Origin: Porphyromonadaceae bacterium W3.11
Lineage (GTDB): Bacteria > Bacteroidota > Bacteroidia > Bacteroidales > Porphyromonadaceae
Assembly (NCBI GenBank): GCA_030434245.1
Contig: JAUISX010000001.1
Span: 372,001-436,000, forward strand
Length of the DNA: 64,000 bases
Direction of reading: 5' to 3'
Position 1 is the stretch's first letter; every line of letters starts with the position of its first letter. The notes beneath the pieces are model-generated. The model was given only the letters and a program-made list of their open reading frames with translations. It was not told the DNA's origin and did not search any database. Below are positions 15,634 to 58,872 of this stretch, in pieces. The position numbers and the translations under genes were made by a program.

Positions 15634-17802
15634 TCACTTTAATCTATTGTAAGTTTTTAAGGCTTCATTACGAACTGCTTGAGGTAGATCCATATTCTCA
15701 CTCATCTCCTTTGCACAGGTCCTTATTTGAGGGACCATATATGAATATTTCTGCCAACCAAGTGCCTCGAGCAAGAAAACTTGTATCTCTGGTTTATTTG
15801 ATACCTTTAAATAAGAAAGTAAGCTTGGAACCAAATAATGAGGACAATAATTGCGCAGATTACGGATGTTTGATTTTCGTTCTTTGTCTGAAGTATCATC
15901 AGCAACAATCGACATTGTTTCATCTACCCATTTATTAGAAGTTGACTTAATCATTTTTTCTATGCTATGTCCTACCTCTTCCTTGTTGATATAGCAGATG
16001 TCATCACTATTAAATTGTTTATCGAACTCTTTCAATAGTTTATCTTCTGGATATAAAGATATCGCATTCTTTGCATTGAATTTAGAGCGTTCGGATGTAT
16101 TATTAGAGATAATGATTTTTATAAGAGACGGAATCAGACGTTCATCACCATTTTGACCTAAAAATCGGAGACCCAAACGCTGAACCATTTCATAACTATC
16201 ATCAACGGCTAACTTTATCGCTTCAATAAAGTTAGTATCCCTATGTTTTGACAAAGACACAAGTGCCTGTAATCGTACTATGCCCTTAGATGATGTCCGA
16301 AATATATCCAATAACTCAGCGGATGTAATGAGACTCTCTGAATTCAGTTGTTCGATAGCCATACACTGCAATTCAGGAAAGTCACTGCGATGTATCCATT
16401 TTCTCCAACCTGAGGCATCATTAGTAGCCAAAAGCTGATTAATATTCAAACCCTCTACCGCTGGTGCAAATGCAAAAGTGGGATCTCCAATAATATGAGA
16501 TTCTAGATATCCCGAGAAACGCACCACATCTCCTACACACATACCCAATCCAAATAATCCTGTGAAGCGATCACTCCACTTATCCTGCAGAACATTCACC
16601 GTATTAGCAATACACACTATATTTTGCCCCGAGCTGAATATGTACTCGTTGGCAATGCAATCCTCCTTGTGAAAGGATCCACAAAAACAAGCATCAATCA
16701 TCACCACACGACAATTGGGCGTATAATTATATGTTATAAAATCGGACAAATGCAAATCTAAATTAGCATCTTCAACTGAATCATTTCTACAAATCTCTTC
16801 GGCAAATGTGTTTTCTAACCATGTAGACGGAATATCAAATTGTCTCTTAAGCTTCACCATCACGCTATCAACATTCTTCCCTCTTTCTTTAGCCGAACGT
16901 ATCTTTGTCCGCCCATATTTTTGTATCATTTCTTTGGCCTGAGAAGCATTCTTCGGTTTTGGAATGTTATTCAAGTACTGAGTATCCCAGGCTCCATGGT
17001 GGTGGAGAATAGCATAATCTAATTCAGGACGCATCAATTCATTCATCAAACGAAACTTTATCACATCTTCCTGACTATGATCCATAAAAGAAATACCATT
17101 TTTCTGTTGTTTCAACCAAGGAAAATGTTCATACAACCCCTCCTTTTCGTCCATACGAGCCACCATGGATTCAGAAATATATCCGTGTCCACCAAAAAAG
17201 AATATGTGGTCAAGCAGATTATTATTCTGCTTTTCTGCCACTACTTTCTTCAAATAGTTACGAAGCTTATCATAACGTGAGACCCCATTACTGTCAGTAG
17301 GTCGGATACGTCCTGTGTATATATCAGGACTTAAATATTGTGCTGACTCCGCTGACAGAGAATAATAAAAATATGGAGCATCTTCATCTTTCTCTAAATA
17401 AGTAAACTTAAGTCCGAAATCATCATAAAATCGATCTGAAGGAACAGAGGAGCGTTTACGATCACGCCTCTGATCCATCTTAAAGGCACTTGTCAGATGC
17501 TGTGCATCCCTAATCATCGTGATTGGAATATCTCCAATAAACACAGCACCCTCAATAGGATAATTCTTCTGCATATGTAATCGGATTAGTTCTGCACGAA
17601 TGGAATCGGGCACCCCCCATTTGTCTATAATCGTATAGACCTTCAATCCTTGTAAAGTTTCTATTGAAGTCGCATATTGCTCCACCTCCCACTTGGCTTC
17701 CTGATAACTTTTGGGGTCAATAACAATCGCAAAACCTCGCTGAGCATACAGCGAAGTCATTGATACGACTATAAAACAAACATAAAATAAAAACTTTCTC
17801 AT
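15634..17802 (-). CDS. C25-family (gingipain clan) cysteine peptidase-like protein with C-terminal HEAT-like repeats
   Basis: A 722-residue exported protein with a signal peptide at residues 1-20 (MRKFLFYVCF to YAQ). Residues about 20-460 resemble the C25 caspase-like fold. GGHG (His206) and HHHGAWD (His269) are candidate catalytic histidines, and DACFCGSF offers Cys372/Cys374. In gingipains the His-Cys spacing is about 33; here it is about 100 or more, so the assignment is provisional. Residues about 480-722 form helical repeats (for example VRLQALVSLSKHRD, VQRLGLRFLGQNGD) of HEAT type. There is no type IX secretion C-terminal domain, so it may remain in the periplasm or be lipid-free and surface-bound. 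It lies downstream of the TonB/DUF4876/DUF6850 genes, on the same strand, after a 467-base gap. Confidence 0.75.
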   Translation of the reverse strand: MRKFLFYVCFIVVSMTSLYAQRGFAIVIDPKSYQEAKWEVEQYATSIETLQGLKVYTIIDKWGVPDSIRAELIRLHMQKNYPIEGAVFIGDIPITMIRDAQHLTSAFKMDQRRDRKRSSVPSDRFYDDFGLKFTYLEKDEDAPYFYYSLSAESAQYLSPDIYTGRIRPTDSNGVSRYDKLRNYLKKVVAEKQNNNLLDHIFFFGGHGYISESMVARMDEKEGLYEHFPWLKQQKNGISFMDHSQEDVIKFRLMNELMRPELDYAILHHHGAWDTQYLNNIPKPKNASQAKEMIQKYGRTKIRSAKERGKNVDSVMVKLKRQFDIPSTWLENTFAEEICRNDSVEDANLDLHLSDFITYNYTPNCRVVMIDACFCGSFHKEDCIANEYIFSSGQNIVCIANTVNVLQDKWSDRFTGLFGLGMCVGDVVRFSGYLESHIIGDPTFAFAPAVEGLNINQLLATNDASGWRKWIHRSDFPELQCMAIEQLNSESLITSAELLDIFRTSSKGIVRLQALVSLSKHRDTNFIEAIKLAVDDSYEMVQRLGLRFLGQNGDERLIPSLIKIIISNNTSERSKFNAKNAISLYPEDKLLKEFDKQFNSDDICYINKEEVGHSIEKMIKSTSNKWVDETMSIVADDTSDKERKSNIRNLRNYCPHYLVPSLLSYLKVSNKPEIQVFLLEALGWQKYSYMVPQIRTCAKEMSENMDLPQAVRNEALKTYNRLK

Positions 17803-18269
17803 TCTTCTATTATTATTTATATTAATTATTTCCTATTCTATTCAAACATTAGGAGTTTTACCACCTATAGCATTATAGCATTGCATGTTGGTCATCGGAT
17901 GCGTTACCTTCAGCAACATGTTTGAACACATACTATGAGTACACTTGCATCTTTGTTTTTGTCCTCATTTATTGTCGACATTTTTTAGTATGATCTTCAT
18001 ACATAATAGTTTGGAGAATCATCTCTTTCATAAAAAGCTACAGTCTTATAAGCATCAAATACATCATCCATTTAATAAATGAATGAAAACAAAACCATAT
18101 AAAATATTTACTTAAGATAAATACTTACTTTACAGTATGATTACACGTGATGTAGTTCCCACTTCCTCAAACAAATTAATAAGAATATGGGGATCCTTCA
18201 AAGCATTCACTCAAAACTCAAAACACAGAATATAAGCATACTTTATCCAACTATTCTCAAATATTCATT
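17803..18269. other. Intergenic region, no gene seen
   Basis: AT-rich gap of 467 bases between the DUF6850 gene and the C25 peptidase gene, both leftward. I see no ORF, tRNA or strong hairpin. The distance suggests the peptidase has its own promoter, but no box with good spacing is visible. Confidence 0.5.
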
Positions 18270-19823
18270 CTAAAAGTTAGCTCCAATACTGAACGTAAGA
18301 TGGCTTCTATGGTCAAAATTATAATCATTTGTTTTGACATAATCGTAGCCAGCTTTTGCAAAAATATTAGCCTTCTTGTCTGTCCTATACTTTTGCGAAT
18401 AGGTTATATTCGCCCCTATTTGATAATAGTTAGACGTCAGATAGTTATTATCCAGCTTTTCTATTTGGGTCACAGTAATGTAATCAGCATGCGAACCTCC
18501 ATAGTAATAACCGCCAGACAAACTCTTGTTATATCCTGCACTGATACTCAACAAAAGACGATTATTCATCAAATCACTAAGTGCTACATTTTTCTTACCA
18601 CATAAGCCAAAATAAAGATTCTCTGCTCTTTTAGTAGAGTTGGGTAATAAGTACTCATCTTGATATTTTTTATACATCATACTTGCATCAAGTTTCCAAC
18701 TGTATTCCTCTCCCATATTCTTATACAAAGAATAGTTCGCAGAGACTACATGAAGTCGATACGTTGAACGAATACTCTTAAACAGATCCATCCAACCTTT
18801 TTGCGACTCACTATTATCCCGCTGACTAACATATTGGATACCATCAATATGATTGAAATAATATCCTGTCTTAAAATAATGAGAGTATCGATTCCCTTTG
18901 TTATAAATGCTCACATTTGCCTGTATGCTTTGATCTTTCACACTTGCATCCTTCTTCGGATCATCAAACGAAACCTCTACATTCTCTACCTTTGCTGTAT
19001 ATGTACCTTCGAATAGGAGATTAACTCGCGATGTAATATAATTATACTGTAGCCCGGCACCGAGTTTATGTCCAAAATAGTTAGTTGTCCGTCCACTACC
19101 AATTCCCCTAACAGCAACTCCTAGTCCATAAAGTTCATAATAGTCTTGATCAACATAATTATTAGCATTACTCATACGCGAATCTTCTTTAATAGATGCG
19201 TATTCAAAAGTCAGTCCCAATTTATGCTTTTCAGCAATGGAATAAGTAATACTTGGAATAAGATCTAATGTATAAAAACGGGTATCTACTCTAGGATCTC
19301 TCTGTTTTGTAGCAATGGAAGCAGTATATGCTCCCTGTAGTCCAAATGCTATTTTACTCCAGTATATGGGTGTACCTACTCTAAACTCTAAATCATAATA
19401 TTGGTTTCTCCATTTGCTTTTATGCAAATCGACTACGTAATAGGGCATCCCTCTAAAAGGGTCAGTAATAGAGGCGTTATATCCAGCATTATTTACGTTT
19501 TTTTGTTCAAAAGAAAATTTTCCCCATACATAAACATCTTTCAAACTCAAAAAACCTTCACTACCGACATTCAAACTTTTTATATTTTCTCCCTCTTGTG
19601 GTCGATGAAAATCTCCTTCTTCTATTCCATATCCTATGTTCACATTAGAATAATTCCTAGTATCATCAAAAACAGTCCCCGCAGCGTTTTGTGAATGAAG
19701 CCAAAACTTCTGTTGCTTTAACATCTCCAAACCAGCAGGAGAGAGAACTTGAGCATAGAGTGATGTACCGAAAAGCCAAACGAATGAAAGAAGGCCTAAT
19801 CCTCTTACTATATTTCTTTTCAT
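18270..19823 (-). CDS. DUF6850-family outer membrane beta-barrel protein
   Basis: The 517-residue protein has a signal peptide ending at YAQ (about residue 25), after which alternating hydrophobic and aromatic strands continue to the C-terminus (LTFSIGANF), as expected for a beta-barrel of the outer membrane. I recognise the family from the N-terminal block (SPAGLEMLKQQKFW, NYSNVNIGYGIEEGDFHRPQ) as DUF6850. The function of the family is unknown. It is the third gene of an operon with a TonB receptor and a DUF4876 lipoprotein (31-base gap), suggesting a joint role in uptake or surface binding of one substrate. Confidence 0.82.
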   Translation of the reverse strand: MKRNIVRGLGLLSFVWLFGTSLYAQVLSPAGLEMLKQQKFWLHSQNAAGTVFDDTRNYSNVNIGYGIEEGDFHRPQEGENIKSLNVGSEGFLSLKDVYVWGKFSFEQKNVNNAGYNASITDPFRGMPYYVVDLHKSKWRNQYYDLEFRVGTPIYWSKIAFGLQGAYTASIATKQRDPRVDTRFYTLDLIPSITYSIAEKHKLGLTFEYASIKEDSRMSNANNYVDQDYYELYGLGVAVRGIGSGRTTNYFGHKLGAGLQYNYITSRVNLLFEGTYTAKVENVEVSFDDPKKDASVKDQSIQANVSIYNKGNRYSHYFKTGYYFNHIDGIQYVSQRDNSESQKGWMDLFKSIRSTYRLHVVSANYSLYKNMGEEYSWKLDASMMYKKYQDEYLLPNSTKRAENLYFGLCGKKNVALSDLMNNRLLLSISAGYNKSLSGGYYYGGSHADYITVTQIEKLDNNYLTSNYYQIGANITYSQKYRTDKKANIFAKAGYDYVKTNDYNFDHRSHLTFSIGANF

Positions 19824-19854
19824 AATTTATCTTGTCCTTAGTATGTAGTCAACT

Positions 19855-21120
19855 CTATTTACTGTGATTCCATGAAGGCATTCCTGTCTTGTATCTTCTT
19901 AATTCCGGATGAACCTGTTTTTCGAAATCCTCTGTACTATTATTATTATCTTGAAAGATCAAAGCCCCATTCTCTCTCCTCAAGAAATCACCATTTTTAT
20001 CCTTATTAGGTTTACGAGCTACACCCAAACTACAATAGGTAGAACCAACATACGTGAGACCAGCATCAAGAACAGCAGGAACTCTCTTGGCATTGACCAT
20101 GGATTCATTATTGATAGCTTCTACGGCATCCAAAACATATTTGATAGGAATCTTAGCATAATATGTTTTTCTATTGGGTTTACTCAAGTCAATTGTTTTC
20201 ATCGCTGGATCATTTACAGGATCCCACGTATCTCCATGTGGCACTTTAAACATTACGTACGCTCCTCCAAAAACAGAAGTAAGATATTGTGGTATCCTTC
20301 CAAGCTCACTCTTGCCGTTATAAAAGACATGTACCATATCAATTGCTGGTTGGTCTGGGAAATTAGGATTATTCATATTGAATTCAAATTCAGAAGAACT
20401 ACAATCTACTGGAGAATTGGGATTATACTGCTCCAATTTATGATTAGCTGCAAACTGAGAAATAACACACGACTCACCAGATTTCAAGGGATAATCTGTA
20501 CCATTACCTGGGAATCGCCATACACGTTCTGCATAAACATAATCATGACCATCCTCCTCAGGCCAAAGTGGCAAAGTGGTTTTCGCCTTGCCAGGTGTAA
20601 GATTAGCAAAGTAGATACCATCTAAGTACAGAGTCTCTGAAGAATTATTATAAATCTCGTAAAATTGATCTCGGAAATAAACGGCATTTAATGGCGTCCT
20701 CGAACCAGCATAATAGATTTCTTTGAACACTAAGGGGCTAATTTTAAGACCTTGTAATAAAAGTTCTATAGACGCCTCATTATCAAACAATGCCACATTT
20801 ACCAGATTTCCATTCAAATAGTATTCACTACCTTCCTGATCGATTGCAACACCCGAAACATTAATAGTATAGATCCCTGGCACAATATCGTCCATATGCA
20901 CCTCGTCATTACTAAACTCTTTCTCTAGATGTAACCCTTCGCTATAATTATCAAACTTAACAAGAAAACTTTCAGTCATTGCTAAGTTTTCAATACTCAT
21001 TTTTAATTTTACAGATACGCTAAGAGGAGTAACGTTTTCTGCTTCATTAACCTCTCGAAATTGATGGCACGACACGAATGTGAGTGCTATCAAAACAAGA
21101 ATAATCGTATATTTTTTCAT
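19855..21120 (-). CDS. DUF4876-domain lipoprotein
   Basis: A 421-residue protein with a signal peptide and lipobox TFVSC (Cys19), so it should be lipid-anchored. The first half (about 30-130) looks like a Ca-binding-free beta-sandwich carrying a NLVNVALF strand. The second half begins KISPLVFKEIYYAGSRTP, followed by QFYEIYNNSSETLYLDGIYF, which resembles a lamin-tail-like fold. This combination is typical of DUF4876. The function is unknown. Being between a TonB receptor gene (10-base gap) and a DUF6850 barrel gene, it is likely the surface-exposed substrate-binding partner, a role like that of SusD but without sequence similarity to it. Confidence 0.83.
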   Translation of the reverse strand: MKKYTIILVLIALTFVSCHQFREVNEAENVTPLSVSVKLKMSIENLAMTESFLVKFDNYSEGLHLEKEFSNDEVHMDDIVPGIYTINVSGVAIDQEGSEYYLNGNLVNVALFDNEASIELLLQGLKISPLVFKEIYYAGSRTPLNAVYFRDQFYEIYNNSSETLYLDGIYFANLTPGKAKTTLPLWPEEDGHDYVYAERVWRFPGNGTDYPLKSGESCVISQFAANHKLEQYNPNSPVDCSSSEFEFNMNNPNFPDQPAIDMVHVFYNGKSELGRIPQYLTSVFGGAYVMFKVPHGDTWDPVNDPAMKTIDLSKPNRKTYYAKIPIKYVLDAVEAINNESMVNAKRVPAVLDAGLTYVGSTYCSLGVARKPNKDKNGDFLRRENGALIFQDNNNSTEDFEKQVHPELRRYKTGMPSWNHSK

Positions 21121-21130
21121 AATTTGTTTT

Positions 21131-23986
21131 TTATAAAGTAAGAGCTAACTCCAAACCGAAATAAAAGCGATTATTCATGGTGATGTAATTACCTGGAAAA
21201 CGCTTAGATTCAATTCTTGGATAACTTCTAAACATATTATTAGCAAAAAAAGAAACACGGAATTTATCACTAATTTCTTTCGTAATATTAACATTAAAAC
21301 AGAAATATGGTGGATAAGACTCCTTGATCGCATCTGAATGAGAGACATTCTGTAACATATATCCATATCCAGCCTCAGTAAGTGCTTCAGGGGTAGTATA
21401 TTGGTCTGATTCAAACATATGTACAGATGCGTCCTCTACTGAAATATAACCAATAGGGATAGAATCATTTCCAAAGGTTCTCCAGTCTGATTGCTGCCAG
21501 ACAGCTTGTGCTGTCAGTGTCACTACAAAGCCAATACTTGGAATGTTGTGTGTTGCTCGTAATGCAGTAGAAAAACGTTGATTGTAACTAATAGCATTCT
21601 TAGGTTCATAAATGGCTACATGTTTTCGCTGCGAGGCACCACTTCCACTATTATCATAGAAATTGTATGCACTATTACCACTTTCTGTACGCATCCATGC
21701 ACCATTCAGTAAAAATGAAGTACGAATAGCATCAACACGTCCTACATTTAAGTCAAATTCTATTCCTTTCGTGTTGATAAATAAGTTATTGGTAGGTTTA
21801 TAATATTTTGAAAGCACTGGATAACTACCTGTCATCACCAATTGATTGTTTTCATCACGACCATACTCATGGTACATAAATGGTTTAAAAGTATGGAATG
21901 TTTCATTAAGAGAATACCCATCTTTCAAGTGCTCAGAAAATGCAGTTACAGCCAAACTTAGATTTCCAATGGATAGATCAAACCCTACTTCAGCTTTATA
22001 ATTTCTAGCTATCTTTAAGCTTTTATTTTCTACATTATGCACTTTGGTAGTCGTAATGAACAACCGTTCGTCTTCCGCAATGTTCTCATTAGCAAGTTCA
22101 TTAATATTAACATATTCAAAATAAGCATTTTCTGGATACAAATAAAGCAAAGTAGGCATTTTTGCAGTAATACCATATCCTCCACGAATAGTAAATAAAT
22201 CCGGAATAATATCAAAAGACGCATTGACACGAGGTGAGAATATGCCTTTTACCACAGAGGCATAGTCATAACGGACACCCGCTTGAATTTTTAGCATTCT
22301 TGAGCCGATTCTCCAGTTCAAATTATCTTCTACAAAAACGCCAAACTGATGAATAAAAGGAATATCTCTGTATGAACGAGGACGGAAACTAGCATTATTC
22401 TCGCTCAAATTTCTGTAAGGCGGAGTAGAAGAATTATAGGTTTTCCCTTCACCTAAATTTCCATCGGATCTAAAATCGATTCCGCTCATTATCCTATTAT
22501 TGACAACTCCTGTTTTTTTGAAGAATGTAGCAACTAGCTTGGCATAAAAATTCACCTCCTTGCTATCTATATTATAGTGTCCCAAATAGCTACTCGGAAG
22601 GTAGATGGCATAATTCTGCATATCCTCACTGCCAAAATGGGTAATTTCATTTCCATCGGCATCATGGACATGCCGACCAGGAACATTTGAAAGAATAGCT
22701 CCATCTGTAGTAGTCATGGAATATGGTGCGTTAGCGGAAGAGTACACCTGCTGATAGTAGCTATTTTTACTAGTATAAGTACCAGAAACGACATAACGAA
22801 TATTCTTCAACCAGCCTTTATCAATGCTCCATGAACCATTAGAGTTAAGAGTTCCCCCTCTATCCTCACCACGAGAGATTGTCTGCGTAATCTCATCATC
22901 AGGGTTCCTATCTCTTTGGTCCTTTCCATATATAAAACTAATTGAAGTATTACTACGTAATTTATTATTAAAGAGTACATTAGAGTACATCACTCTAGCT
23001 GAAGCCCTTTGGTAATGGCGATAAGACTGTGTTGGATTAGAGGTATTGTACGCATAATCACCACTTAAGTTCAGTGCTCCATTTTTTACACCTAATGCAA
23101 AACCGGTTGTTAGAGAGGCTTGATACACTTTGGGATTAGCCTTTGCATTAATACGTAAGGGCTCACGTCCAGCCTTCGCATTGATGATAACAGCTCCAGA
23201 GGTAAGGTCACCATATTCAACGGATGGTATTCCTCGTATAATCTCAATAGACTCTATATTTTCTGTACCAATACTACGTACATCCAGCCCTCCAGTAGGA
23301 GAAGCTCCACCTGATAAAGCTTCAGCCATACCATTGACAGTTGGGTTCATAGCCTGCAAATTAGAATTATTTGAAACGGGAGCTCCATCTTTAATAATAG
23401 CAGTACCTAAAGCATTAAAATTAGCCACTTTGCTGGCATCAGATACTTGGCGTATATTAATCTGTCTATTATTATCAAGATTTGGTTCGGAAGACAGTCC
23501 TCCAGGTATCAAAGCCATCAAGTCGAACAAACTAGTAGCCTGTATATGATCAATAGCTGTTCGTGCTATCTTTGAGGACGTGGATTTTCCTGCCTGGTTT
23601 CTCTGAGCCGTGACAATAATTTCCTTGATCTTGAAATCTTCATTCTTCATAGTAAAGTCTATCGGATCCATCTTATCCTGAACGTCAATGACGGCATCGA
23701 TCTGTAGTTTTCCCAAAAACTGCACCCTTATTCTTGCTTTTCCTACTGGCACGTTTTTGAGGAGATAACTACCATCATTCTTAGTAGTCGTGCCAATAGC
23801 ATAGTCGGGAAATGAAACAGCAGCAAAACCTAGAGGCAACAAATCATTCCCATCCAACTCATAAATTGTACCATAGACATCTACTTTATTTGGTGACTGA
23901 GCATTAGCTATAGGTGTCAGCCATAAACCTATGAGGAAGAGCAAAACAGGCAGTTCTCTTCGATCAAATATTGAATTAAATTTCAT
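21131..23986 (-). CDS. TonB-dependent receptor with CarboxypepD_reg-like and plug domains
   Basis: A 951-residue outer membrane transporter. The signal peptide ends at ANAQ (about residue 30). A carboxypeptidase-regulatory-like domain (35-125) is followed by a plug with IVTAQRN, LMALIPGGL and the IESIEIIRGIPSVEYGDLTSGAVIINAKAG block (about 245-275), and then a 22-strand-size barrel ending in FGLELALTL, a typical terminal strand. It imports a substrate across the outer membrane using TonB energy. It is the first gene of a three-gene operon with DUF4876 and DUF6850, preceded by a well-matched promoter. No SusD gene is present, so a polysaccharide substrate is not implied. Confidence 0.92.
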   Translation of the reverse strand: MKFNSIFDRRELPVLLFLIGLWLTPIANAQSPNKVDVYGTIYELDGNDLLPLGFAAVSFPDYAIGTTTKNDGSYLLKNVPVGKARIRVQFLGKLQIDAVIDVQDKMDPIDFTMKNEDFKIKEIIVTAQRNQAGKSTSSKIARTAIDHIQATSLFDLMALIPGGLSSEPNLDNNRQINIRQVSDASKVANFNALGTAIIKDGAPVSNNSNLQAMNPTVNGMAEALSGGASPTGGLDVRSIGTENIESIEIIRGIPSVEYGDLTSGAVIINAKAGREPLRINAKANPKVYQASLTTGFALGVKNGALNLSGDYAYNTSNPTQSYRHYQRASARVMYSNVLFNNKLRSNTSISFIYGKDQRDRNPDDEITQTISRGEDRGGTLNSNGSWSIDKGWLKNIRYVVSGTYTSKNSYYQQVYSSANAPYSMTTTDGAILSNVPGRHVHDADGNEITHFGSEDMQNYAIYLPSSYLGHYNIDSKEVNFYAKLVATFFKKTGVVNNRIMSGIDFRSDGNLGEGKTYNSSTPPYRNLSENNASFRPRSYRDIPFIHQFGVFVEDNLNWRIGSRMLKIQAGVRYDYASVVKGIFSPRVNASFDIIPDLFTIRGGYGITAKMPTLLYLYPENAYFEYVNINELANENIAEDERLFITTTKVHNVENKSLKIARNYKAEVGFDLSIGNLSLAVTAFSEHLKDGYSLNETFHTFKPFMYHEYGRDENNQLVMTGSYPVLSKYYKPTNNLFINTKGIEFDLNVGRVDAIRTSFLLNGAWMRTESGNSAYNFYDNSGSGASQRKHVAIYEPKNAISYNQRFSTALRATHNIPSIGFVVTLTAQAVWQQSDWRTFGNDSIPIGYISVEDASVHMFESDQYTTPEALTEAGYGYMLQNVSHSDAIKESYPPYFCFNVNITKEISDKFRVSFFANNMFRSYPRIESKRFPGNYITMNNRFYFGLELALTL

Positions 23987-24409
23987 TTCTGATTGTTTTT
24001 TGAAATATTCATAAATTGGTAATACATATCATTTCTGTATTCATCTCCAATTCGAATCAAAAAAAAGAGCTTATAGTATTATCAACATTATATTATCCTT
24101 CACACAAAGATATTAGGTATCACATATTATAGCAATACCTTATTTTAGGTATATTCAATTACAATAACGTGTATTAACTACTCGTCATCAAAAAAACCAA
24201 ATGAATAAATGTGCTTTGCTTAGGCTTTTCTAACAAATGCCTTACAAACCTTCAGGGGAAAAAGAGGTTGCACGATGGATGAGATAAAAGGCCTGGGGGT
24301 GGTGCTGGAAGTGTCGTAATATACATGGACCAAATCTGAATGCAGAAAGCAATCCTATAGGTCGCCATTATTAAAGTTCACAATATAAGTAAAAAGCTCT
24401 CTAACGAGA
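23987..24409. other. Intergenic region with receptor promoter
   Basis: The receptor promoter at 24105-24135 (listed separately) is the only element I can support here. A slightly more GC-rich patch at about 24230-24340 has no open frame or family resemblance on either strand. Confidence 0.5.
24105..24135 (-). promoter_or_regulatory. Promoter of the TonB/DUF4876/DUF6850 operon
   Basis: On the minus strand, TTG (24135-24133), a 20-base spacer and TATCTTTG (24112-24105) match the Bacteroidota consensus. The leader to the receptor start would be about 110 bases. Confidence 0.7.
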
Positions 24410-29089: not shown

Positions 29090-29833
29090 TTATTCAAATA
29101 ATTCAGCAGGGTTTATTTTAAATTGGAGCATATTTGCAGTAGAACGTCCCCCATCACCACCTTTCCGTTGCATTGTAATTTTTCCTATTTTAAGAGTTCC
29201 TCTTGGCGAAATTAAAACATCTCCATTTCCAAAAAAGTTAAGACAATAATTCATTGGCTTTAATATCCACCTAGCATGAGTGTCTGTTTTCTGAGCCACT
29301 AACATCCATTCTGCTGAAAACTTACCTCGCCCTTTTAAAACATCACTAACAATAAGTGATTTATTATTTTGTAACCATGTCAATAATTTACGTTGGTCTT
29401 TTTCGCTAAACTCATTGGCAAATGTTCTCCTTTTATCTTTTGGATTATTGATTCTTGGAGGTAATTCGCCTGTATATTCCTTTAATAATTGTGTTATATC
29501 ATTAGGAATATCCCACATAGTAACATATTTATCTACCCAACGCTTATCTATTTGATTAAAACCCATAAAGTTACTGACTAGCTTAACTTGAATATTTTCA
29601 GCATCTATGGCCTGTTTTAGCTTTACAGTTACTTGAACTTGTATATCAGCTTTAAAACCTGATAGTACGACAGCTTTTACAAACTCGATCTCATCAAGAT
29701 TGTACTCCATTAAGGTTAACCATTTTTGAGCTTCTTTGTCAACTTGCCAATGATTGAATTTTTGGACTATATCCTTCTCGTTCTTGAATCCGTTTTTTGC
29801 TGTCTGTGAACCTAGTAGTTGAAGATTGTTCAT
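29090..29833 (-). CDS. Type II restriction endonuclease, HinP1I-like (predicted GCGC)
   Basis: At 247 residues it has the same length as R.HinP1I as I remember it, and many blocks agree: KNGFKNEKDI, NLDEIEFVKAVVLSG, IQVKLVSN, FNQIDKRW, TGELPP, KDKRRTF, GRGKFSAEWMLVAQK, ARWIL, QRKGGDGGRSTANMLQFKI and PAELFE. The catalytic residues of that family (Asp, then QxK) correspond to Asp63, Gln82 and Lys84. The enzyme should cleave within GCGC unless the inner cytosine is methylated. Its start overlaps the 3' end of the partner methyltransferase gene by 95 bases in another frame, so the two are translated from one mRNA. Specificity is inferred from similarity. Confidence 0.9.
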   Translation of the reverse strand: MNNLQLLGSQTAKNGFKNEKDIVQKFNHWQVDKEAQKWLTLMEYNLDEIEFVKAVVLSGFKADIQVQVTVKLKQAIDAENIQVKLVSNFMGFNQIDKRWVDKYVTMWDIPNDITQLLKEYTGELPPRINNPKDKRRTFANEFSEKDQRKLLTWLQNNKSLIVSDVLKGRGKFSAEWMLVAQKTDTHARWILKPMNYCLNFFGNGDVLISPRGTLKIGKITMQRKGGDGGRSTANMLQFKINPAELFE

Positions 29834-30839
29834 TTCGTTTTATCACCTCACAAATTTCCCTTAAAATATACTGTATAACATCAATTGAAACACTATTTCC
29901 AAATTGTTTATGAGCTTGGGGAACACTTTTATCAGGACTAAAACTTTCAGGAAATCCTTGTAATCTAGCACATTCTCTAGGCGATAATTTCCTTATGACC
30001 TTACCGACTTTATACAGCCCAGTTTTAGAGCCAACACCACCTCCATAAGCCGACAAAGTTATAGCATGACCTCTAATATCATAAATTCGTTCTCCCTGCC
30101 CTCCCTTATTAACTTTACCGATTTGAATGGGTTTATTAGGGAAGTTTGCATTACCAAACATGTCATAGGTAGGAGTGTATTCCTTATGAAAAAAAATATC
30201 GTCTCGTTCAATAACTTTTCCATCCTTAGGATTTTCCTCCAAAATATCTTCTACTTTACTCACGATATTTTTTTTCGGAAATGCAAAGGCTAAGTCCTTG
30301 AACACATTATTATTTAAAGCAACAAAGTATATTCGTTCCCTATTTTGAGGCAATCCATAATTGCTAGTATTTAATACTTTGTGGTAAAGGGTATAGTTTA
30401 AATCATTAAGTGTCTTTTCAACAACCCTTAGTGTGTTACCATTATCGTGCTTGGCAAAATTTTTAACATTCTCTAGAAAGAGTATTTTGGGTTGATGATA
30501 CTTAACGATCCGAGCAATGTCAAAAAACAAAGTTCCTCTGGTATCTTCAAATCCTCTTTGTTTTCCCGATATAGAAAATGCTTGGCAAGGGAATCCAGCA
30601 CATAAAATATCGTGACTTGGAATATCTTGTTCTCTTATCTTTGTAATATCTCCTTTTGGTTTGATATGATGATTTTGCTCATAAACATTGCTTGCATGTT
30701 GGTCAATTTCTGAAGCAAAAACGCACTCTGCACCAAATGATTCCATAGCATAATGGAATCCACCAATGCCAGCAAATAAGTCTATAAACTTATAACCTTT
30801 TAATATTTTTTGTTCCTCTAAAATCTTTATCATCATCAA
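29739..30839 (-). CDS. Cytosine-5 DNA methyltransferase, M.HhaI-like (predicted GCGC)
   Basis: A 366-residue enzyme whose motifs closely track M.HhaI: FIDLFAGIGGFHYAMES (motif I), DILCAGFPCQAFSISGKQRG (Cys85 catalytic), ENVKNFAKHDNGNTL, QNRERIY, and the target-recognition segment KGGQGERIYDIRGHAITLSAYGGG. It ends with the conserved ECARLQGFPESF and QFGNSV motifs. It should methylate the inner cytosine of GCGC, protecting the host from the endonuclease encoded next. The start may be any of three consecutive Met codons. About 30 C-terminal residues, encoded in the overlap with the endonuclease gene, extend beyond the usual family end and look unconserved. Confidence 0.95.
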   Translation of the reverse strand: MMMIKILEEQKILKGYKFIDLFAGIGGFHYAMESFGAECVFASEIDQHASNVYEQNHHIKPKGDITKIREQDIPSHDILCAGFPCQAFSISGKQRGFEDTRGTLFFDIARIVKYHQPKILFLENVKNFAKHDNGNTLRVVEKTLNDLNYTLYHKVLNTSNYGLPQNRERIYFVALNNNVFKDLAFAFPKKNIVSKVEDILEENPKDGKVIERDDIFFHKEYTPTYDMFGNANFPNKPIQIGKVNKGGQGERIYDIRGHAITLSAYGGGVGSKTGLYKVGKVIRKLSPRECARLQGFPESFSPDKSVPQAHKQFGNSVSIDVIQYILREICEVIKRNEQSSTTRFTDSKKRIQEREGYSPKIQSLAS

Positions 30840-32564: not shown

Positions 32565-34001
32565 GATACTGTCCCCAAAAAGTGTGTAAGTCCCAAGAAT
32601 GTTATCTTTGAAAAGTTAAAAACAAAAGATAAACAAGAAGATGAGACTTACACAAATGCAATTTAAGGAAATTCTATCAAACGTGATGACAGAGCCAAAT
32701 GGAGTTGGTCGTTTAATGGAGTTAATCATCGAAATAGCGATGCAAGGGGAGAGGGAACTGTATAAAGAAGATAGTGGCGATGTGAGCAATGGATACCGCC
32801 CCCGTCGCATCTTTGCGAGTGGTAATATGCTAGAATTACGAGTACCCCGAACTCGACAGCAGGGCTTCATGCCCTTGATTTTAGGCGTTCTCAAAGATCA
32901 AGAGAAAGAGATGGGAGAACTAGCAGGTTATCTATATAGCTGCGGTAATACGATGGAGGATATCTCTGGAGTATTCGAGCGTTTGTATGGTAAACGTTAT
33001 AGTACGAGTCAAATCAATCGTCTCTCCTTATCGACCCAAGAAGCAGTAGAAGAGTGGCGTCAAAGACGTCTACCGAGGACTTTAGAGGCACTTGTTATCG
33101 ATGCTACATATCTTCCTGTACGGAGAGGAGAAAGTGTGAGCAAGGAGGCATTTTTTGTAGTGATGAGTTTAGATAGCGAAGGACGTCGAGACATCGTGGG
33201 TGTCTATAATAATCCAACAGAGGGAAGCGGCATCTGGGGCGAGTTTTTTGAGGATCTAAAAAGCCGAGGACTCGAAGAGGTAGGACTAATCATTTCAGAC
33301 GGGTTGAATAACATTGAAGAGGTTGCACGTGAGCACTTTACAGAAGTGGAAGTCCAGCTCTGCACGGTGCATCTACAGCGAGAAATAACTCGAAAGATAC
33401 GCCCTCGAGATAAGTCAGCCATCGCAAGTGATCTACAGGAGGTCTTTAGTAAAGACGGCTCAAGAAGCTCACCTTTAGATGGCCTAGAGAGCTTTAAAAA
33501 CTTTGCGTTCAGATGGCGTAAGAGCTATCCTTTTCTCACAAAAATAGCTAACGGTCAGAGGATAGAGTATTACTTCACATACCTAAAATACGACGTCAGT
33601 GTTCGCAAGTACATTCATAGTACTAACTGGATAGAACGCTTCAATAGACAGGTAAAGAAAGGGGCTCGATATAAATGTGCATTACCTAGCGTAGAATCCG
33701 CTCTACACTTGATAGGTAGTATTGCAATCAATGCAAACTATCTGAAGAAAAGAATAGGAGATCTAACTCTTGGACTTAGGAAGAACAATGAAAAGTAAAT
33801 AACAACAATGTGCTTTATTTTCCAACACAAAGATATCAACCTAAAAGAATACGGCAAGGCGGTGTCTCCGCGGTGCTACGACAGCCTTGCCTTAATTCTT
33901 TATTGGTCTATCTTTAATGTTTATGGAAAACAAAGCGAAAAAATATGTAGGTTTGCTTTTCAGAGACGCATTCTGCCGTACACACTTTTGGGGACACTAC
34001 C
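32565..34001 (+). mobile_element. IS256-family insertion sequence, copy 1 (1437 bp)
   Basis: The ends are imperfect inverted repeats: left GATACTGTCCCCAAAAAGTG, right (reverse complement) GGTAGTGTCCCCAAAAGTGT. The element carries one transposase gene on the same strand and an internal TATCTTTG promoter box at 32603-32610. A hairpin region lies after the gene (AGGCGGTGTCTCCGCGG). It has an 8-bp target duplication, so it is a complete, recent insertion. It differs from copy 2 by only a couple of bases that I noticed (for example at 32731 and 32791). Confidence 0.93.
32641..33798 (+). CDS. IS256-family transposase (copy 1)
   Basis: A 385-residue mutator-type DDE transposase. Visible catalytic regions are the first Asp in VIDATYLPV, the second Asp in LIISDGLNNIEEVAREHF followed by CTVHLQREI (C..H motif), and the Glu in STNWIERFNRQVKKGARYK. 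It makes and inserts a circular intermediate by cutting at the element ends. The frame is intact and full length. The product of copy 2 is the same except Pro53 here is Ser there. Confidence 0.95.
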   Translation: MRLTQMQFKEILSNVMTEPNGVGRLMELIIEIAMQGERELYKEDSGDVSNGYRPRRIFASGNMLELRVPRTRQQGFMPLILGVLKDQEKEMGELAGYLYSCGNTMEDISGVFERLYGKRYSTSQINRLSLSTQEAVEEWRQRRLPRTLEALVIDATYLPVRRGESVSKEAFFVVMSLDSEGRRDIVGVYNNPTEGSGIWGEFFEDLKSRGLEEVGLIISDGLNNIEEVAREHFTEVEVQLCTVHLQREITRKIRPRDKSAIASDLQEVFSKDGSRSSPLDGLESFKNFAFRWRKSYPFLTKIANGQRIEYYFTYLKYDVSVRKYIHSTNWIERFNRQVKKGARYKCALPSVESALHLIGSIAINANYLKKRIGDLTLGLRKNNEK

Positions 34002-34009
34002 CAATAAAA
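34002..34009. repeat. 8-bp target site duplication, right (IS256 copy 1)
   Basis: CAATAAAA, identical to the bases just left of the element. Confidence 0.85.
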
Positions 34010-34096
34010 ACTCAATTTATATATATATTTCTTTATGACGAATATGCTTCGAACTGAGCCCTTTCTCCACATAAGAATTCAGAAAAAAGTAAGAAA

Positions 34097-35944
34097 GAGG
34101 GTGTGTCAAAACCTAGTTTTGATGCATCCTCAATTTTTTTGATAGGGTGTGTCCTAAGCAGCTACGAGATGTTTTAGAATTTGGTTTTCCCCTAAAAATA
34201 GTTTGTTAGTAACTAAAAATGGATGATTTGGGCAAGAATGAGGTGTATTATCCATGTTTTTTGGGTTTTTCGCTATCCTAGAGCATAGTTTCTTGACATT
34301 GAATGCTATGGCAAAGAAGGCAAAGTCCATAGTGACCTTGTCTTGACCGAAGTGTCGAAAGCGTTTGTAGCTCATATTGTATTTCATTTGACCAAATACT
34401 GATTCCGGCTCTACACATCGTCGTCCTCGATGTCTTAGTCCTTCTTCGGACGTAAGGAGTTGGCTTGCTTTCTTTTTGTACTCATTGAGTCTGTGATTGA
34501 CCTCTATGATTCGATTGCCTTTTGCCTTAAAACATAGTCCTCTGAGTGGACATCCTTCGCACCTCGCAGCCTTATATCTCGCACTCTCAGTAGTGTATCC
34601 GCTTGCTGTCTTGCCTCTCTTTGTCCCGATGCGCCTCATCCTTTGTCCCATCGGACAGACATAGTAATCTCCTTCTTTGTTGTAGTATAAAGATGCGGGC
34701 TGAAATGGGTCGGGCTTGTAACGAGGACGATGCTCAATATGGAAGCGATTGTATTTGACAAAGGGTGTTGTACCAGACTCTTCCATAAAACGATAGTTCT
34801 CCTCCGAGCCATAGCCGGAGTCGGCTACAACAGTAGAGGGCAAATCACCATAACGGTCTTGATGGGATTGAAGAAAGGGGATAAATGTGAGGGTGTCAGT
34901 AGGATTGTGGAAAAGTCCAAAGTTGGTAATAAATTGCTGATTCGTAGCTATTTGTAAATTGTAACCTGGCTTGGTCTGACCATTTCTCATGGCATCCTCC
35001 TTCATACGCATAAAGGTGGCAGAGGGGTCGGTCTTGGAGTAGGAGTTGCGAGTGCCGAGTATCTCTAGCTTTTTGTCGTACTCCTGAAGTTTGTCTTTGT
35101 GCTCTTCTAGTTGCTTGATCTGCTTCTTCCTCTCTCTTATTTTCTTTTTCTCCTCCTTGTTGACTGGTTCCGGGGTTCTCTCTAGTTCTGCTTTGAAGGT
35201 GGTCACCAGCTCTGAAAGTTGTTCCGCTGTAATCTCTACTTCTTCGCTACCCTCGCTATTCTCTTGAGCAATACAATCATCGATTTGAGAGAGCAGCACT
35301 TTTAGCTTTTCCTGAAGTTTGGCTCGATTTCGTTCCACGCTTTTCCGCCACACAAAGGTGTATTTATTGGCTTTGGATTCTATCTTAGTGCCATCGATAT
35401 ACTCCACATCAAGACTGATAAAACCTCTCTCTGCAAGTAACAATACCATCTGTGAGAAGACCTTATTAATCTCTCCTTTTACACGATTACGAAATCTATT
35501 GATGGTGATAAAGTCAGGCTTTTCATACCCTGCAAGCCAGATGAAGTGGACATCTCTTTTGAGGGCTTGCTCAATCTTCCTGCACGAGTAGATGTTATTC
35601 ATGTAGGCGTAGATAATCACCTTGAGCATCATCTTGGGGTGGTAGGGGTGGCGACCTATCTTACTGTACAAGCCCTTAATATTCTCAATCTCAATAGCAT
35701 CGATAATGGCATTGACCACTCTCACTGGATTATTAGCACAAATATCCTCGTCAAGCCTTTGAGGAAAAAGCATTGACCTATTGTGTATGTATGGACGAAA
35801 TTGTATCTTTGTCATAGTTAATTTATTGATATACATAAAGATACAAAATCTTTATGATATAGAAAAGCCCCAGCTTGTGAAAGTTGGGGCTTTTGTCGCA
35901 AAATAAGAGGGTGCGTCAAAAAAATTAGTTTTGACACACCCTCT
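34097..35944 (-). mobile_element. IS1182-family insertion sequence, copy 1 (about 1848 bp)
   Basis: Bounded by inverted repeats GAGGGTGTGTCAAAAC (left) and GTTTTGACACACCCTC (right). Each end can also fold on itself: the left end pairs with GTTTTGATGCATCCTC (ending 34132) and the right end with GAGGGTGCGTCAAAA (35908-35922). A further stem, CCCCA/TGGGG at 35868-35890, precedes the transposase gene. No direct target duplication is evident; the flanks are instead inverted (TAAGAAA left, TTTCTTA right). It carries one intact transposase gene. It lies 95 bases right of the IS256 copy and 61 bases from the stop of rplI. Confidence 0.9.
34154..35836 (-). CDS. IS1182-family transposase (copy 1)
   Basis: A 560-residue DDE transposase. 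The N-terminal region (PVRVVNAIIDAIEI, GRHPYHPKMMLKVIIYAYMNNIYSCRKIE) is the DUF772-type domain typical of IS1182 and IS5-like elements. Catalytic Asp candidates are in DVEYIDGTKIESKANKYTF and VVADSGYGSEENYRFM. A four-cysteine cluster (CPMGQRM, CEGCPLRGLC) is followed by FGQMKYNMSYKRFRHFG, near the catalytic Glu. A charged coiled coil spans about 160-260. The frame is intact and the protein is identical to that of copy 2. Confidence 0.95.
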   Translation of the reverse strand: MYINKLTMTKIQFRPYIHNRSMLFPQRLDEDICANNPVRVVNAIIDAIEIENIKGLYSKIGRHPYHPKMMLKVIIYAYMNNIYSCRKIEQALKRDVHFIWLAGYEKPDFITINRFRNRVKGEINKVFSQMVLLLAERGFISLDVEYIDGTKIESKANKYTFVWRKSVERNRAKLQEKLKVLLSQIDDCIAQENSEGSEEVEITAEQLSELVTTFKAELERTPEPVNKEEKKKIRERKKQIKQLEEHKDKLQEYDKKLEILGTRNSYSKTDPSATFMRMKEDAMRNGQTKPGYNLQIATNQQFITNFGLFHNPTDTLTFIPFLQSHQDRYGDLPSTVVADSGYGSEENYRFMEESGTTPFVKYNRFHIEHRPRYKPDPFQPASLYYNKEGDYYVCPMGQRMRRIGTKRGKTASGYTTESARYKAARCEGCPLRGLCFKAKGNRIIEVNHRLNEYKKKASQLLTSEEGLRHRGRRCVEPESVFGQMKYNMSYKRFRHFGQDKVTMDFAFFAIAFNVKKLCSRIAKNPKNMDNTPHSCPNHPFLVTNKLFLGENQILKHLVAA

Positions 35945-36005
35945 TTCTTATTAAAACATACGATTAATAGGAAACGCGTCCTAATACATCATGTGTTCGA
36001 TATAT

Positions 36006-50959: not shown

Positions 50960-50983
50960 TATAAGTAGTAATAATAAATATAA

Positions 50984-52830
50984 GAGGGTGTGTCAAAACC
51001 TAGTTTTGATGCATCCTCAATTTTTTTGATAGGGTGTGTCCTAAGCAGCTACGAGATGTTTTAGAATTTGGTTTTCCCCTAAAAATAGTTTGTTAGTAAC
51101 TAAAAATGGATGATTTGGGCAAGAATGAGGTGTATTATCCATGTTTTTTGGGTTTTTCGCTATCCTAGAGCATAGTTTCTTGACATTGAATGCTATGGCA
51201 AAGAAGGCAAAGTCCATAGTGACCTTGTCTTGACCGAAGTGTCGAAAGCGTTTGTAGCTCATATTGTATTTCATTTGACCAAATACTGATTCCGGCTCTA
51301 CACATCGTCGTCCTCGATGTCTTAGTCCTTCTTCGGACGTAAGGAGTTGGCTTGCTTTCTTTTTGTACTCATTGAGTCTGTGATTGACCTCTATGATTCG
51401 ATTGCCTTTTGCCTTAAAACATAGTCCTCTGAGTGGACATCCTTCGCACCTCGCAGCCTTATATCTCGCACTCTCAGTAGTGTATCCGCTTGCTGTCTTG
51501 CCTCTCTTTGTCCCGATGCGCCTCATCCTTTGTCCCATCGGACAGACATAGTAATCTCCTTCTTTGTTGTAGTATAAAGATGCGGGCTGAAATGGGTCGG
51601 GCTTGTAACGAGGACGATGCTCAATATGGAAGCGATTGTATTTGACAAAGGGTGTTGTACCAGACTCTTCCATAAAACGATAGTTCTCCTCCGAGCCATA
51701 GCCGGAGTCGGCTACAACAGTAGAGGGCAAATCACCATAACGGTCTTGATGGGATTGAAGAAAGGGGATAAATGTGAGGGTGTCAGTAGGATTGTGGAAA
51801 AGTCCAAAGTTGGTAATAAATTGCTGATTCGTAGCTATTTGTAAATTGTAACCTGGCTTGGTCTGACCATTTCTCATGGCATCCTCCTTCATACGCATAA
51901 AGGTGGCAGAGGGGTCGGTCTTGGAGTAGGAGTTGCGAGTGCCGAGTATCTCTAGCTTTTTGTCGTACTCCTGAAGTTTGTCTTTGTGCTCTTCTAGTTG
52001 CTTGATCTGCTTCTTCCTCTCTCTTATTTTCTTTTTCTCCTCCTTGTTGACTGGTTCCGGGGTTCTCTCTAGTTCTGCTTTGAAGGTGGTCACCAGCTCT
52101 GAAAGTTGTTCCGCTGTAATCTCTACTTCTTCGCTACCCTCGCTATTCTCTTGAGCAATACAATCATCGATTTGAGAGAGCAGCACTTTTAGCTTTTCCT
52201 GAAGTTTGGCTCGATTTCGTTCCACGCTTTTCCGCCACACAAAGGTGTATTTATTGGCTTTGGATTCTATCTTAGTGCCATCGATATACTCCACATCAAG
52301 ACTGATAAAACCTCTCTCTGCAAGTAACAATACCATCTGTGAGAAGACCTTATTAATCTCTCCTTTTACACGATTACGAAATCTATTGATGGTGATAAAG
52401 TCAGGCTTTTCATACCCTGCAAGCCAGATGAAGTGGACATCTCTTTTGAGGGCTTGCTCAATCTTCCTGCACGAGTAGATGTTATTCATGTAGGCGTAGA
52501 TAATCACCTTGAGCATCATCTTGGGGTGGTAGGGGTGGCGACCTATCTTACTGTACAAGCCCTTAATATTCTCAATCTCAATAGCATCGATAATGGCATT
52601 GACCACTCTCACTGGATTATTAGCACAAATATCCTCGTCAAGCCTTTGAGGAAAAAGCATTGACCTATTGTGTATGTATGGACGAAATTGTATCTTTGTC
52701 ATAGTTAATTTATTGATATACATAAAGATACAAAATCTTTATGATATAGAAAAGCCCCAGCTTGTGAAAGTTGGGGCTTTTGTCGCAAAATAAGAGGGTG
52801 CGTCAAAAAAATTAGTTTTGACACACCCTC
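50984..52830 (-). mobile_element. IS1182-family insertion sequence, copy 2 (about 1847 bp)
   Basis: Same inverted repeats and hairpin-forming ends as copy 1. It differs by one base in the stem-loop ahead of the transposase gene (GAAAG here, GAAAAG in copy 1). No target duplication is visible in the flanks (AATATAA left, TTTTTCATA right). Both copies are in the same orientation. Inserted immediately downstream of subunit K of the V-ATPase. Confidence 0.9.
51041..52723 (-). CDS. IS1182-family transposase (copy 2)
   Basis: 560 residues, identical to the product of copy 1 and intact, with the same domain order (N-terminal DUF772-type region, DDE core, four-Cys cluster). The gene reads toward the V-ATPase operon 3' end. 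Confidence 0.95.
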   Translation of the reverse strand: MYINKLTMTKIQFRPYIHNRSMLFPQRLDEDICANNPVRVVNAIIDAIEIENIKGLYSKIGRHPYHPKMMLKVIIYAYMNNIYSCRKIEQALKRDVHFIWLAGYEKPDFITINRFRNRVKGEINKVFSQMVLLLAERGFISLDVEYIDGTKIESKANKYTFVWRKSVERNRAKLQEKLKVLLSQIDDCIAQENSEGSEEVEITAEQLSELVTTFKAELERTPEPVNKEEKKKIRERKKQIKQLEEHKDKLQEYDKKLEILGTRNSYSKTDPSATFMRMKEDAMRNGQTKPGYNLQIATNQQFITNFGLFHNPTDTLTFIPFLQSHQDRYGDLPSTVVADSGYGSEENYRFMEESGTTPFVKYNRFHIEHRPRYKPDPFQPASLYYNKEGDYYVCPMGQRMRRIGTKRGKTASGYTTESARYKAARCEGCPLRGLCFKAKGNRIIEVNHRLNEYKKKASQLLTSEEGLRHRGRRCVEPESVFGQMKYNMSYKRFRHFGQDKVTMDFAFFAIAFNVKKLCSRIAKNPKNMDNTPHSCPNHPFLVTNKLFLGENQILKHLVAA

Positions 52831-52980
52831 TTTTTCATACACCATATCATAACTCTTGAACATTTCGGACGAATCAAACATATCAACCTTATAGTAGTGC
52901 ATAACAAATCTTTGATATCTGAGGTGCGACACACTCAATTAATCCACCCACAAGAGGCTTCACTTTATCATAAAATTTTT
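52831..52980. other. Short non-coding spacer between IS1182 copy 2 and IS256 copy 2
   Basis: About 150 bases of ordinary sequence. A minus-strand frame here (starting at 52938) runs into the IS1182 end and looks accidental. Confidence 0.4.
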
Positions 52981-52988
52981 GCAAGACT
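52981..52988. repeat. 8-bp target site duplication, left (IS256 copy 2)
   Basis: GCAAGACT directly precedes the element and recurs at its right end. Confidence 0.92.
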
Positions 52989-54425: not shown

Positions 54426-54433
54426 GCAAGACT
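54426..54433. repeat. 8-bp target site duplication, right (IS256 copy 2)
   Basis: GCAAGACT, identical to 52981-52988. Confidence 0.92.
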
Positions 54434-56033: not shown

Positions 56034-56048
56034 CTCTTAAAATTGTTA

Positions 56049-58479: not shown

Positions 58480-58872
58480 TACCCAAAAGTAGGTAATTTA
58501 TGTGGCTATCAATAAGTTAAAGACAATGCACATAGGGTTGATATTCCAAAAGAACACACCATGTGCAAATTAATCGTATATAGATTCAAGATAGAAGTGC
58601 GAATATTAGTCGTAGAATGGTTAGAAATGAAAAAAAGTCAATATCCGCTTATATGTGGAATTAAGTTTTCTGGCTCATCAATCTGCTTAAGCCGACTAAG
58701 TCTCTTCTATACCCTATTTCCCCCCAGACTATTGAGACAATACTAGATTTCTAAAAGTCTATATACTTCATAACGTTTCAATCAAGTAAATCTTTTTTAT
58801 CTAATTATTGTTTAATATGAAACATTTCGGTACCTTGCAAAATATATTACCAAACACAATAAATAATGTACC
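58480..58872. other. Divergent intergenic region, otherwise unremarkable
   Basis: Between the receptor promoter and the DUF2807 gene. A TTG (58808-58810) with a 20-base spacer to TACCTTGC (58831-58838) is a weak promoter candidate for the rightward gene. No ORF of note. Confidence 0.45.

Follow-up and report, generated by a model that had tools for sequence, protein, structure and literature searches.

A gingipain-fold peptidase is encoded with a TonB receptor, a DUF4876 lipoprotein and a DUF6850 barrel in a predicted iron-regulon operon of a Porphyromonadaceae bacterium

We analyzed a 64,000-nucleotide stretch of the genome of Porphyromonadaceae bacterium W3.11 (contig JAUISX010000001.1, positions 372,001 to 436,000; hereafter the window). 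Four minus-strand genes in the window encode a TonB-dependent receptor, a DUF4876 lipoprotein, a DUF6850 outer-membrane beta-barrel and a C25-fold cysteine peptidase with HEAT repeats (Table 1). A first-pass annotation, made from the sequence, had reported these genes with gaps of 10 bp (receptor-DUF4876), 31 bp (DUF4876-DUF6850) and 467 bp (DUF6850-C25). All four genes and the gaps were as described, and the Pfam families agreed. We found that the four genes are a conserved module, that they have a regulatory site in common with FeoAB, and that the fourth gene encodes a gingipain-fold peptidase with an unvarying dyad. No conserved RNA element or tRNA was found near the locus, and no terminator was found between the DUF6850 and C25 genes.

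Table 1. Features of the four-gene locus, with positions in the window.
Feature	Position	Strand	Basis
TonB-dependent receptor, 951 amino acids (aa), N-terminal CarbopepD_reg_2 and Plug	21131..23986	-	Pfam
DUF4876 lipoprotein, 421 aa, lipobox Cys18; lamin tail domain (LTD)-like part 129-223, DUF4876 part 215-405	19855..21120	-	Pfam, PDB 4q1z
DUF6850 outer-membrane beta-barrel, 517 aa, ~18 strands in model (predicted local distance difference test, pLDDT, 92)	18270..19823	-	Pfam, model
C25-fold cysteine peptidase, 722 aa, ending in HEAT repeats; candidate dyad His269/Cys372; signal peptide, no type IX secretion system (T9SS) tail	15634..17802	-	
AT-rich (29% GC) extra non-coding DNA, ~456 bp, at the DUF6850-C25 junction; not in the Bacteroides fluxus operon	17815..18270	.	
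Operator palindrome ATACCT-AAAATA-AGGTAT (core TACCTAAAATAAGGTA at 24136-24151), overlaps -33 element	24135..24152	.	11/12 matches to TACCTAnnnnTAGGTA
-7 promoter element TATCTTTG, 20 bp past ATTG of the -33 element	24105..24112	-	sequence
Second inverted repeat AGGTAT-N14-ATACCT, one half-site in common with the operator	24115..24140	-	

The fourth protein has the fold of a gingipain catalytic domain. Its AlphaFold2 model (64 aligned sequences; pLDDT 94.1, predicted template modelling score 0.91) had as best PDB matches in Foldseek 4ief and 1cvr, both RgpB (E = 1.6e-5, template modelling (TM) score 0.53 by target), followed by HEAT-type and alphaRep proteins. The earlier assignment of this gene as C25-fold with HEAT repeats was thus upheld. 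The window protein itself matched Pfam HEAT_2 and scored 12.4 bits against Pfam Peptidase_C25, below the 23-bit gathering cut-off; 26 of 64 homologues matched that family (best 1.4e-11) and all matched HEAT_2. His269-Gly270 and Cys372, which follow strands E263-267 and E366-370 in the model, were invariant in 135 of 135 homologues. Asp370 varied in only two of them, and a GDP motif (439-441) was retained in at least 134. We ruled out GHG 205-207 as the source of the catalytic histidine, as His206 was present in only 84 of the 135. The dyad is retained in all tandem C25 paralogues, and because of this the C25-HEAT proteins are probably working enzymes. The C-terminus consists of HEAT repeats up to the last residues, and we found no T9SS C-terminal sorting domain. 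That is, the protein is a gingipain-like C25 relative and not a gingipain.

The DUF4876 protein matched Pfam PF16215 (8.6e-52), and a solved structure, PDB 4q1z, is closely related to it over residues 29-420 (E = 1.8e-182). One half of it had been called lamin-tail-like, a description that holds up weakly: the LTD match of the window protein was 0.16, and LTD was matched by 10 of 20 family members, the best at 2e-4. The DUF6850 protein matched Pfam PF21012 (2e-114), and its model (58 sequences) was a single large outer-membrane barrel with short N-terminal helices. Foldseek returned many large outer-membrane barrels for it (TonB receptors, FadL), all with low TM scores, and we therefore claim no specific function. 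PDB sequence searches with the TonB receptor and with DUF6850 found no relative.

The peptidase gene is almost always found next to DUF6850. We scanned genome contigs and found 230 relatives; 80 loci were retained for counts of homologous loci, and linkage frequency was measured in an even set of 199 Bacteroidales genomes. The first-pass annotation had proposed this co-occurrence as its own test, and its prediction held. Strong C25-HEAT matches occurred in 10 of the 199 genomes, and in all 10 the C25 run had DUF6850 as a neighbor on its own contig and strand, at a distance of 3.3 kb in one case (L154). The overlap by genome had P = 1.5e-7 (6.6e-7 without the genome of the window). DUF6850 was within the analyzed flank in 77 of the 80 loci, and 64 had the order TonB-DUF4876-DUF6850-C25 on one strand, most gaps being between -50 and +60 bp. 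Two of the three loci without DUF6850 (L081, L084) are C25-first, with the contig ending within or after the TonB gene; the third (L094) ends ~200 bp past C25. There was one C25 copy in 47 loci, two in 18, three in 12, four in two and five in one.

The receptor-lipoprotein-barrel core has two common partners. Of 58 fetched C25-less loci, from a set picked to be mostly C25-less and not used for frequencies, 36 had an ATP-binding cassette (ABC) ATPase, a permease and DUF4857 instead of C25. Both partner sets were present in 6 of the 80 C25-selected loci. In L066, L082 and L085-L087, TonB has the ABC-DUF4857 set on its upstream side and C25 on its downstream side, so the two sets can coexist. Several loci of the ABC-DUF4857 flavor (L100, L106, L108, L109, L116) have a short DUF4876-like lipoprotein of 120-130 aa before DUF6850 and one or two full DUF4876 genes after the barrel. 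One locus (L105:5841-14645) has a DUF6850 in the C25 clade, followed by a 287-aa lipoprotein in place of C25.

The promoter of the operon carries a predicted iron operator. Promoters in Bacteroidota have the consensus TTTG/TAnnTTTG. The one good promoter noted earlier is such a -33/-7 promoter, at ~24136-24105 beneath a conserved palindrome, and reads ATACCTAAAATAAGGTATTG-N20-TATCTTTG. (A scan for the sigma-70 consensus gave chance-level matches and was not used.) Matches to TACCTAnnnnTAGGTA reached 11 or 12 of 12 positions in 19 of 124 regions upstream of receptor genes of this family, and in none during 20 rounds of dinucleotide shuffling; another 11 regions matched at 10 of 12 (1.15 expected). 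Sites occur in loci of both flavors, usually followed by TTG and TAnnTTTG. Upstream of FeoB in relatives (n = 30), there were 9 sites with at least 10 of 12 matches (0.4 expected), 5 of them at 11-12 (none expected). Within the genome of the window we found 13 forward matches, compared to 7 for a reversed control pattern. These include sites before a FeoAB fusion, an operon of TetR and two ABC genes, rubrerythrin, and three further TonB loci: a second DUF4876/DUF6850/ABC/DUF4857 operon (L100), a locus with DUF4876 (L102), and a TonB/DUF4374-like pair. Some of the remaining matches fall inside coding regions or a long way from gene starts and are probably due to chance.

Because this operator is common to FeoAB, we provisionally place the operon in an iron regulon; judged by sequence, TACCTAnnnnTAGGTA over the -33 element marks that regulon in Bacteroidales. 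The placement agrees with published transcriptomes of relatives. In one report (PMC10434189), iron depletion raised expression of PG1019-22 by 20.8-214.5-fold, of BT3625-33 by ~37-128-fold, and of BT1933-39 (HEAT repeat, DUF4876, TonB) by 3.5-7.4-fold. A DUF4876 gene of Porphyromonas gingivalis is among its strongest haem-responsive genes (PMC10470040). In the open-licence literature we found no description of the TACCTAnnnnTAGGTA operator or of a link between C25-HEAT and TonB genes.

The TonB/DUF4374-like pair lies in the window itself (54735-58412, minus strand). It pairs a TonB receptor with a lipoprotein whose match to DUF4374 (XusB family) is sub-threshold, and a TACCTAnnnnTAGGTA-type site lies 68 bp upstream, at 58480-58495. 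It is probably another iron-uptake operon.

Sister loci point to haem. Downstream of C25, 31 of the 80 loci have a gene for a papain-like peptidase, which often overlaps it, and next a gene for an HmuY-like lipoprotein. Cys, His and Asn were invariant in 11 aligned papain-like peptidases, and the Pfam Peptidase_C1 match was weak. The lipoprotein matched the first part of HmuY (1.2e-9, 5.5e-11; PDB 8b61, 1.8e-10). Neither gene was found in the fetched C25-less loci. These partners favor haem as the cofactor. Together with reports that related loci respond to iron and haem, they strengthen an earlier guess of iron or haem. In these 31 loci (e.g., L029:12162-14065, L050:12138-14062), HmuY looks split across the papain-like peptidase and the next gene. 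The strands that end the L029 peptidase have a weak match to HmuY positions 119-149 (E = 0.026); the short lipoprotein encoded next matches HmuY 1-64.

The peptidase and its partners appear to have different histories. A DUF6850 tree with 121 rows placed 68 of the 69 C25-linked rows in one branch of 82 (Shimodaira-Hasegawa-like approximate likelihood ratio test, SH-aLRT, 99), and the C25 label changed 7 times, compared to 39.5 with shuffled labels; most of the C25 rows had been collected through their C25. The DUF6850 of the window grouped with that of Bacteroides fluxus, among Bacteroides-type operons, and not with its own genus. Apart from the AT-rich stretch, the window and B. fluxus operons have 75-76% DNA identity all the way from the promoter leader through C25. 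Transfer, in either direction, between the genus of the window and a Bacteroides-like lineage is likely. The C25 of the window grouped with C25s of Odoribacter and Prevotella (SH-aLRT 98 and 100). Judged on the other three genes, the operons closest to that of the window after B. fluxus are L080 and L167, and their C25s are only 31-39% identical to the C25 of the window. This position in the C25 tree conflicts with the other three genes. On the tree evidence, then, the C25 is foreign by ancestry to the rest of its operon: the protease was replaced or added anew in this lineage, and the pairing was rebuilt at least once. That a protease was kept at this position through an exchange argues for functional coupling.

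The DUF6850-C25 gap is ~20-31 bp in B. fluxus and in the window is filled by lineage-specific AT-rich DNA. This DNA, which is single copy in the genome, has broken short frames and sits where the C25 phylogeny switches. It is possibly a scar of the C25 exchange. We rejected the idea that the 467-bp gap holds a mobile element or a peptide gene: there were no repeats, frames were fragments of 20-45 codons only, and folding was no better than that of shuffles. No second promoter with a full -7 element was found in the gap.

Signal sequences, called by simple pattern rules, suggest where the proteins act. A Sec signal peptide was found in 116 of 145 C25 proteins, and a lipobox pattern in 25, several of them doubtful. 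Those matching the lipobox have few acidic residues after the cysteine, and the window protein has a plain Sec signal peptide. Acidic residues after the lipobox cysteine are a surface-export signal in lipoproteins. DUF4876 family lipoproteins have a mean of 2.3 acidic residues at +2 to +8, and the DUF4876 lipoprotein is probably surface-exposed. The Sec signal on C25, together with the lack of a T9SS tail, points to a periplasmic location for the C25-HEAT protein. Taken together, the two sets of signals suggest surface capture, TonB import and periplasmic cleavage.

We therefore favor, with moderate confidence, an import system that is induced by iron starvation and coupled to a protease. At low iron, a repressor would leave the TACCTAnnnnTAGGTA operator. 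The DUF4876 lipoprotein at the surface would capture an iron- or haem-bearing protein or peptide and pass the ligand to the TonB receptor, with DUF6850 as an accessory barrel. The ligand would be drawn through the receptor into the periplasm, where the C25-HEAT peptidase would cut the protein part and free iron or haem for inner-membrane uptake; the HEAT solenoid perhaps holds the substrate. Tandem C25 copies, and in sister loci the papain-like enzyme, would widen the specificity of cleavage. We infer the substrate, its binding by DUF4876, the import of protein or peptide, the site and result of cleavage, and the role of the barrel. The first-pass annotation had also coupled uptake to proteolysis. 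The coupling is reinforced by near-obligate linkage, the re-association of a foreign C25 and the operator in common. Proteolysis at the surface, as then envisaged, fits poorly with the plain Sec signal and the lack of a T9SS tail. A host protein as general source of the substrate does not hold, since the operon is also present in environmental Bacteroidota (Marinilabiliaceae, Prolixibacteraceae, Chitinophaga).

Several observations weigh against protease-coupled import. About 40 of 50 TonB-DUF4876-DUF6850 loci in the 199-genome sample have no C25, which makes the protease an accessory. The C25 expected at L105 was found neither in 7.2 kb downstream nor elsewhere in that genome (87% complete). 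A distance of 467 bp separates C25 from DUF6850 in the window, so co-transcription is putative. The window DUF4876 protein is only modestly acidic after the lipobox cysteine, and signal sequences are the sole basis for placing C25-HEAT in the periplasm. The HmuY-like proteins, at just ~125 aa, cover the first 49-64 of 157 HmuY positions, and haem binding by them is uncertain. The window locus has neither an HmuY-like nor a papain-like gene; the only HmuY in the genome is encoded ~109 kb away from the operon, in a locus (L103) that also has a TonB receptor gene and an HmuS-like gene of 1321 aa. Finally, the HEAT protein of BT1933-39 is a putative C25 homologue, judged by annotation and gene order.

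It is possible, if unlikely, that C25 acts outside the cell. It would be released or surface-held and strip haem or iron there, and the DUF4876 and TonB proteins would import the freed cofactor or small fragments. This resembles the P. gingivalis gingipains with HmuY/HmuR (PMC10100897) and fits the gingipain fold, the HmuY-like lipoproteins in sister operons and the C25 paralogues that are lipoproteins. However, the family lacks the T9SS C-terminal domain and the acidic export signal after the lipobox cysteine, and the window protein has a plain Sec signal.

Two other proposals are considerably less probable. One is that C25 processes a component of its own operon (e.g., the DUF4876 lipoprotein or the receptor), like PorU in type IX secretion. 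Clan CD does include processing enzymes, and the linkage is tight, but the same three membrane proteins mostly occur without C25, the window operon has a C25 of foreign origin, and 2-5 divergent tandem copies plus a papain-like enzyme suggest degradation over one defined cut. The other, rated equally low, is that the receptor imports a metal-carrying ribosomal or non-ribosomal peptide, or a nutrient peptide, that C25 trims in the periplasm. It has a topology identical to that of protease-coupled import, and the iron operator and the spread into free-living Bacteroidota suit it; however, clustering of flanking open reading frames of at least 80 aa turned up no conserved gene for a small peptide, and the HmuY-like partners indicate haem. 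A chance neighborhood, with a protease unrelated to the uptake genes, is barely credible: the 467-bp gap and a possible independent C25 promoter would allow it in the window, but co-occurrence at P ~1e-7, an order fixed across families and the short gap in B. fluxus, filled in the window by lineage-specific DNA, speak against it, and linkage counts rule it out at the family level.

Protease-coupled import has a counterpart in the Fus/PqqL systems (Pectobacterium FusA-FusC; Escherichia coli YddB-PqqL; PMC6793856, PMC6071955). In both, a TonB-dependent receptor and an exported protease are encoded in one cluster. The Fus/PqqL systems have iron-limited expression, and the same is predicted here from the operator in common with FeoAB and from induction of related loci (PMC10434189). 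Import would precede proteolysis in both; FusA/FusC have been shown to work in this sequence, and YddB/PqqL have been proposed to (PMC6793856). In contrast to the M16 metalloprotease of those systems, the enzyme here is a clan CD cysteine peptidase with HEAT repeats, a Bacteroidota lipoprotein and second barrel are added, and the window locus has no TonB paralogue or ABC gene. The Fus/PqqL authors cover Proteobacteria, and their text does not mention C25 or gingipains. With no M16 protease, the window system would work like Fus and is not a Fus member. It is a tentative and rather doubtful extension that such systems are a Bacteroidota-wide cysteine-protease counterpart of Fus. Such a counterpart would import intact haem or iron proteins via a TonB receptor and take them apart in the periplasm with gingipain-fold HEAT peptidases, and would stand in evolution between ordinary receptors and secreted gingipains.

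Other known systems are similar in part. The gingipains and Hmu haem uptake of P. gingivalis also use a gingipain-fold peptidase for haem or iron supply, and HmuY-like genes occur in sister loci. Here the T9SS tail is replaced by HEAT repeats, the peptidase is encoded inside the uptake operon, and the true HmuY/TonB receptor/HmuS-like locus is elsewhere in the genome. PG1019-PG1022, BT1933-39, BT3625-33 and PIN17_RS07775-90 (PMC10434189) have the same iron-depletion-induced DUF4876 and TonB module, with a HEAT-repeat protein in BT1933-39; they were published as induced loci, and the excerpts of that report do not describe the C25 identity, the two flavors or the operator. The XusAB/BtuBG-type pairs of Bacteroides also combine a receptor with a capture lipoprotein under iron or cofactor regulation. 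Unlike these, the locus here has an extra barrel and a protease, and DUF4876 matches no XusB (DUF4374) Pfam model.

Gut and oral Bacteroidota are limited by iron supply, and no role has been assigned to several of the genes that respond most strongly when they are starved of iron, the DUF4876/TonB loci. Our results give these loci a testable role and split them into two flavors (ABC-DUF4857 set or C25 proteases), and the TACCTAnnnnTAGGTA operator lets the rest of the iron regulon be listed. If import does precede proteolysis, then nutritional protein import would extend past Proteobacteria and M16 enzymes.

Two other features of the window lie outside the operon. Two near-identical transposase gene pairs (32565-35946 and 50982-54429; Mutator family, 385 aa, and DDE, 560 aa; 99.8-100% identical) bracket a V-type ATPase gene region. 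On the minus strand at 29090-30839, a gene for a HinP1I-type restriction endonuclease adjoins a C5-cytosine methylase gene, forming a type II restriction-modification pair.

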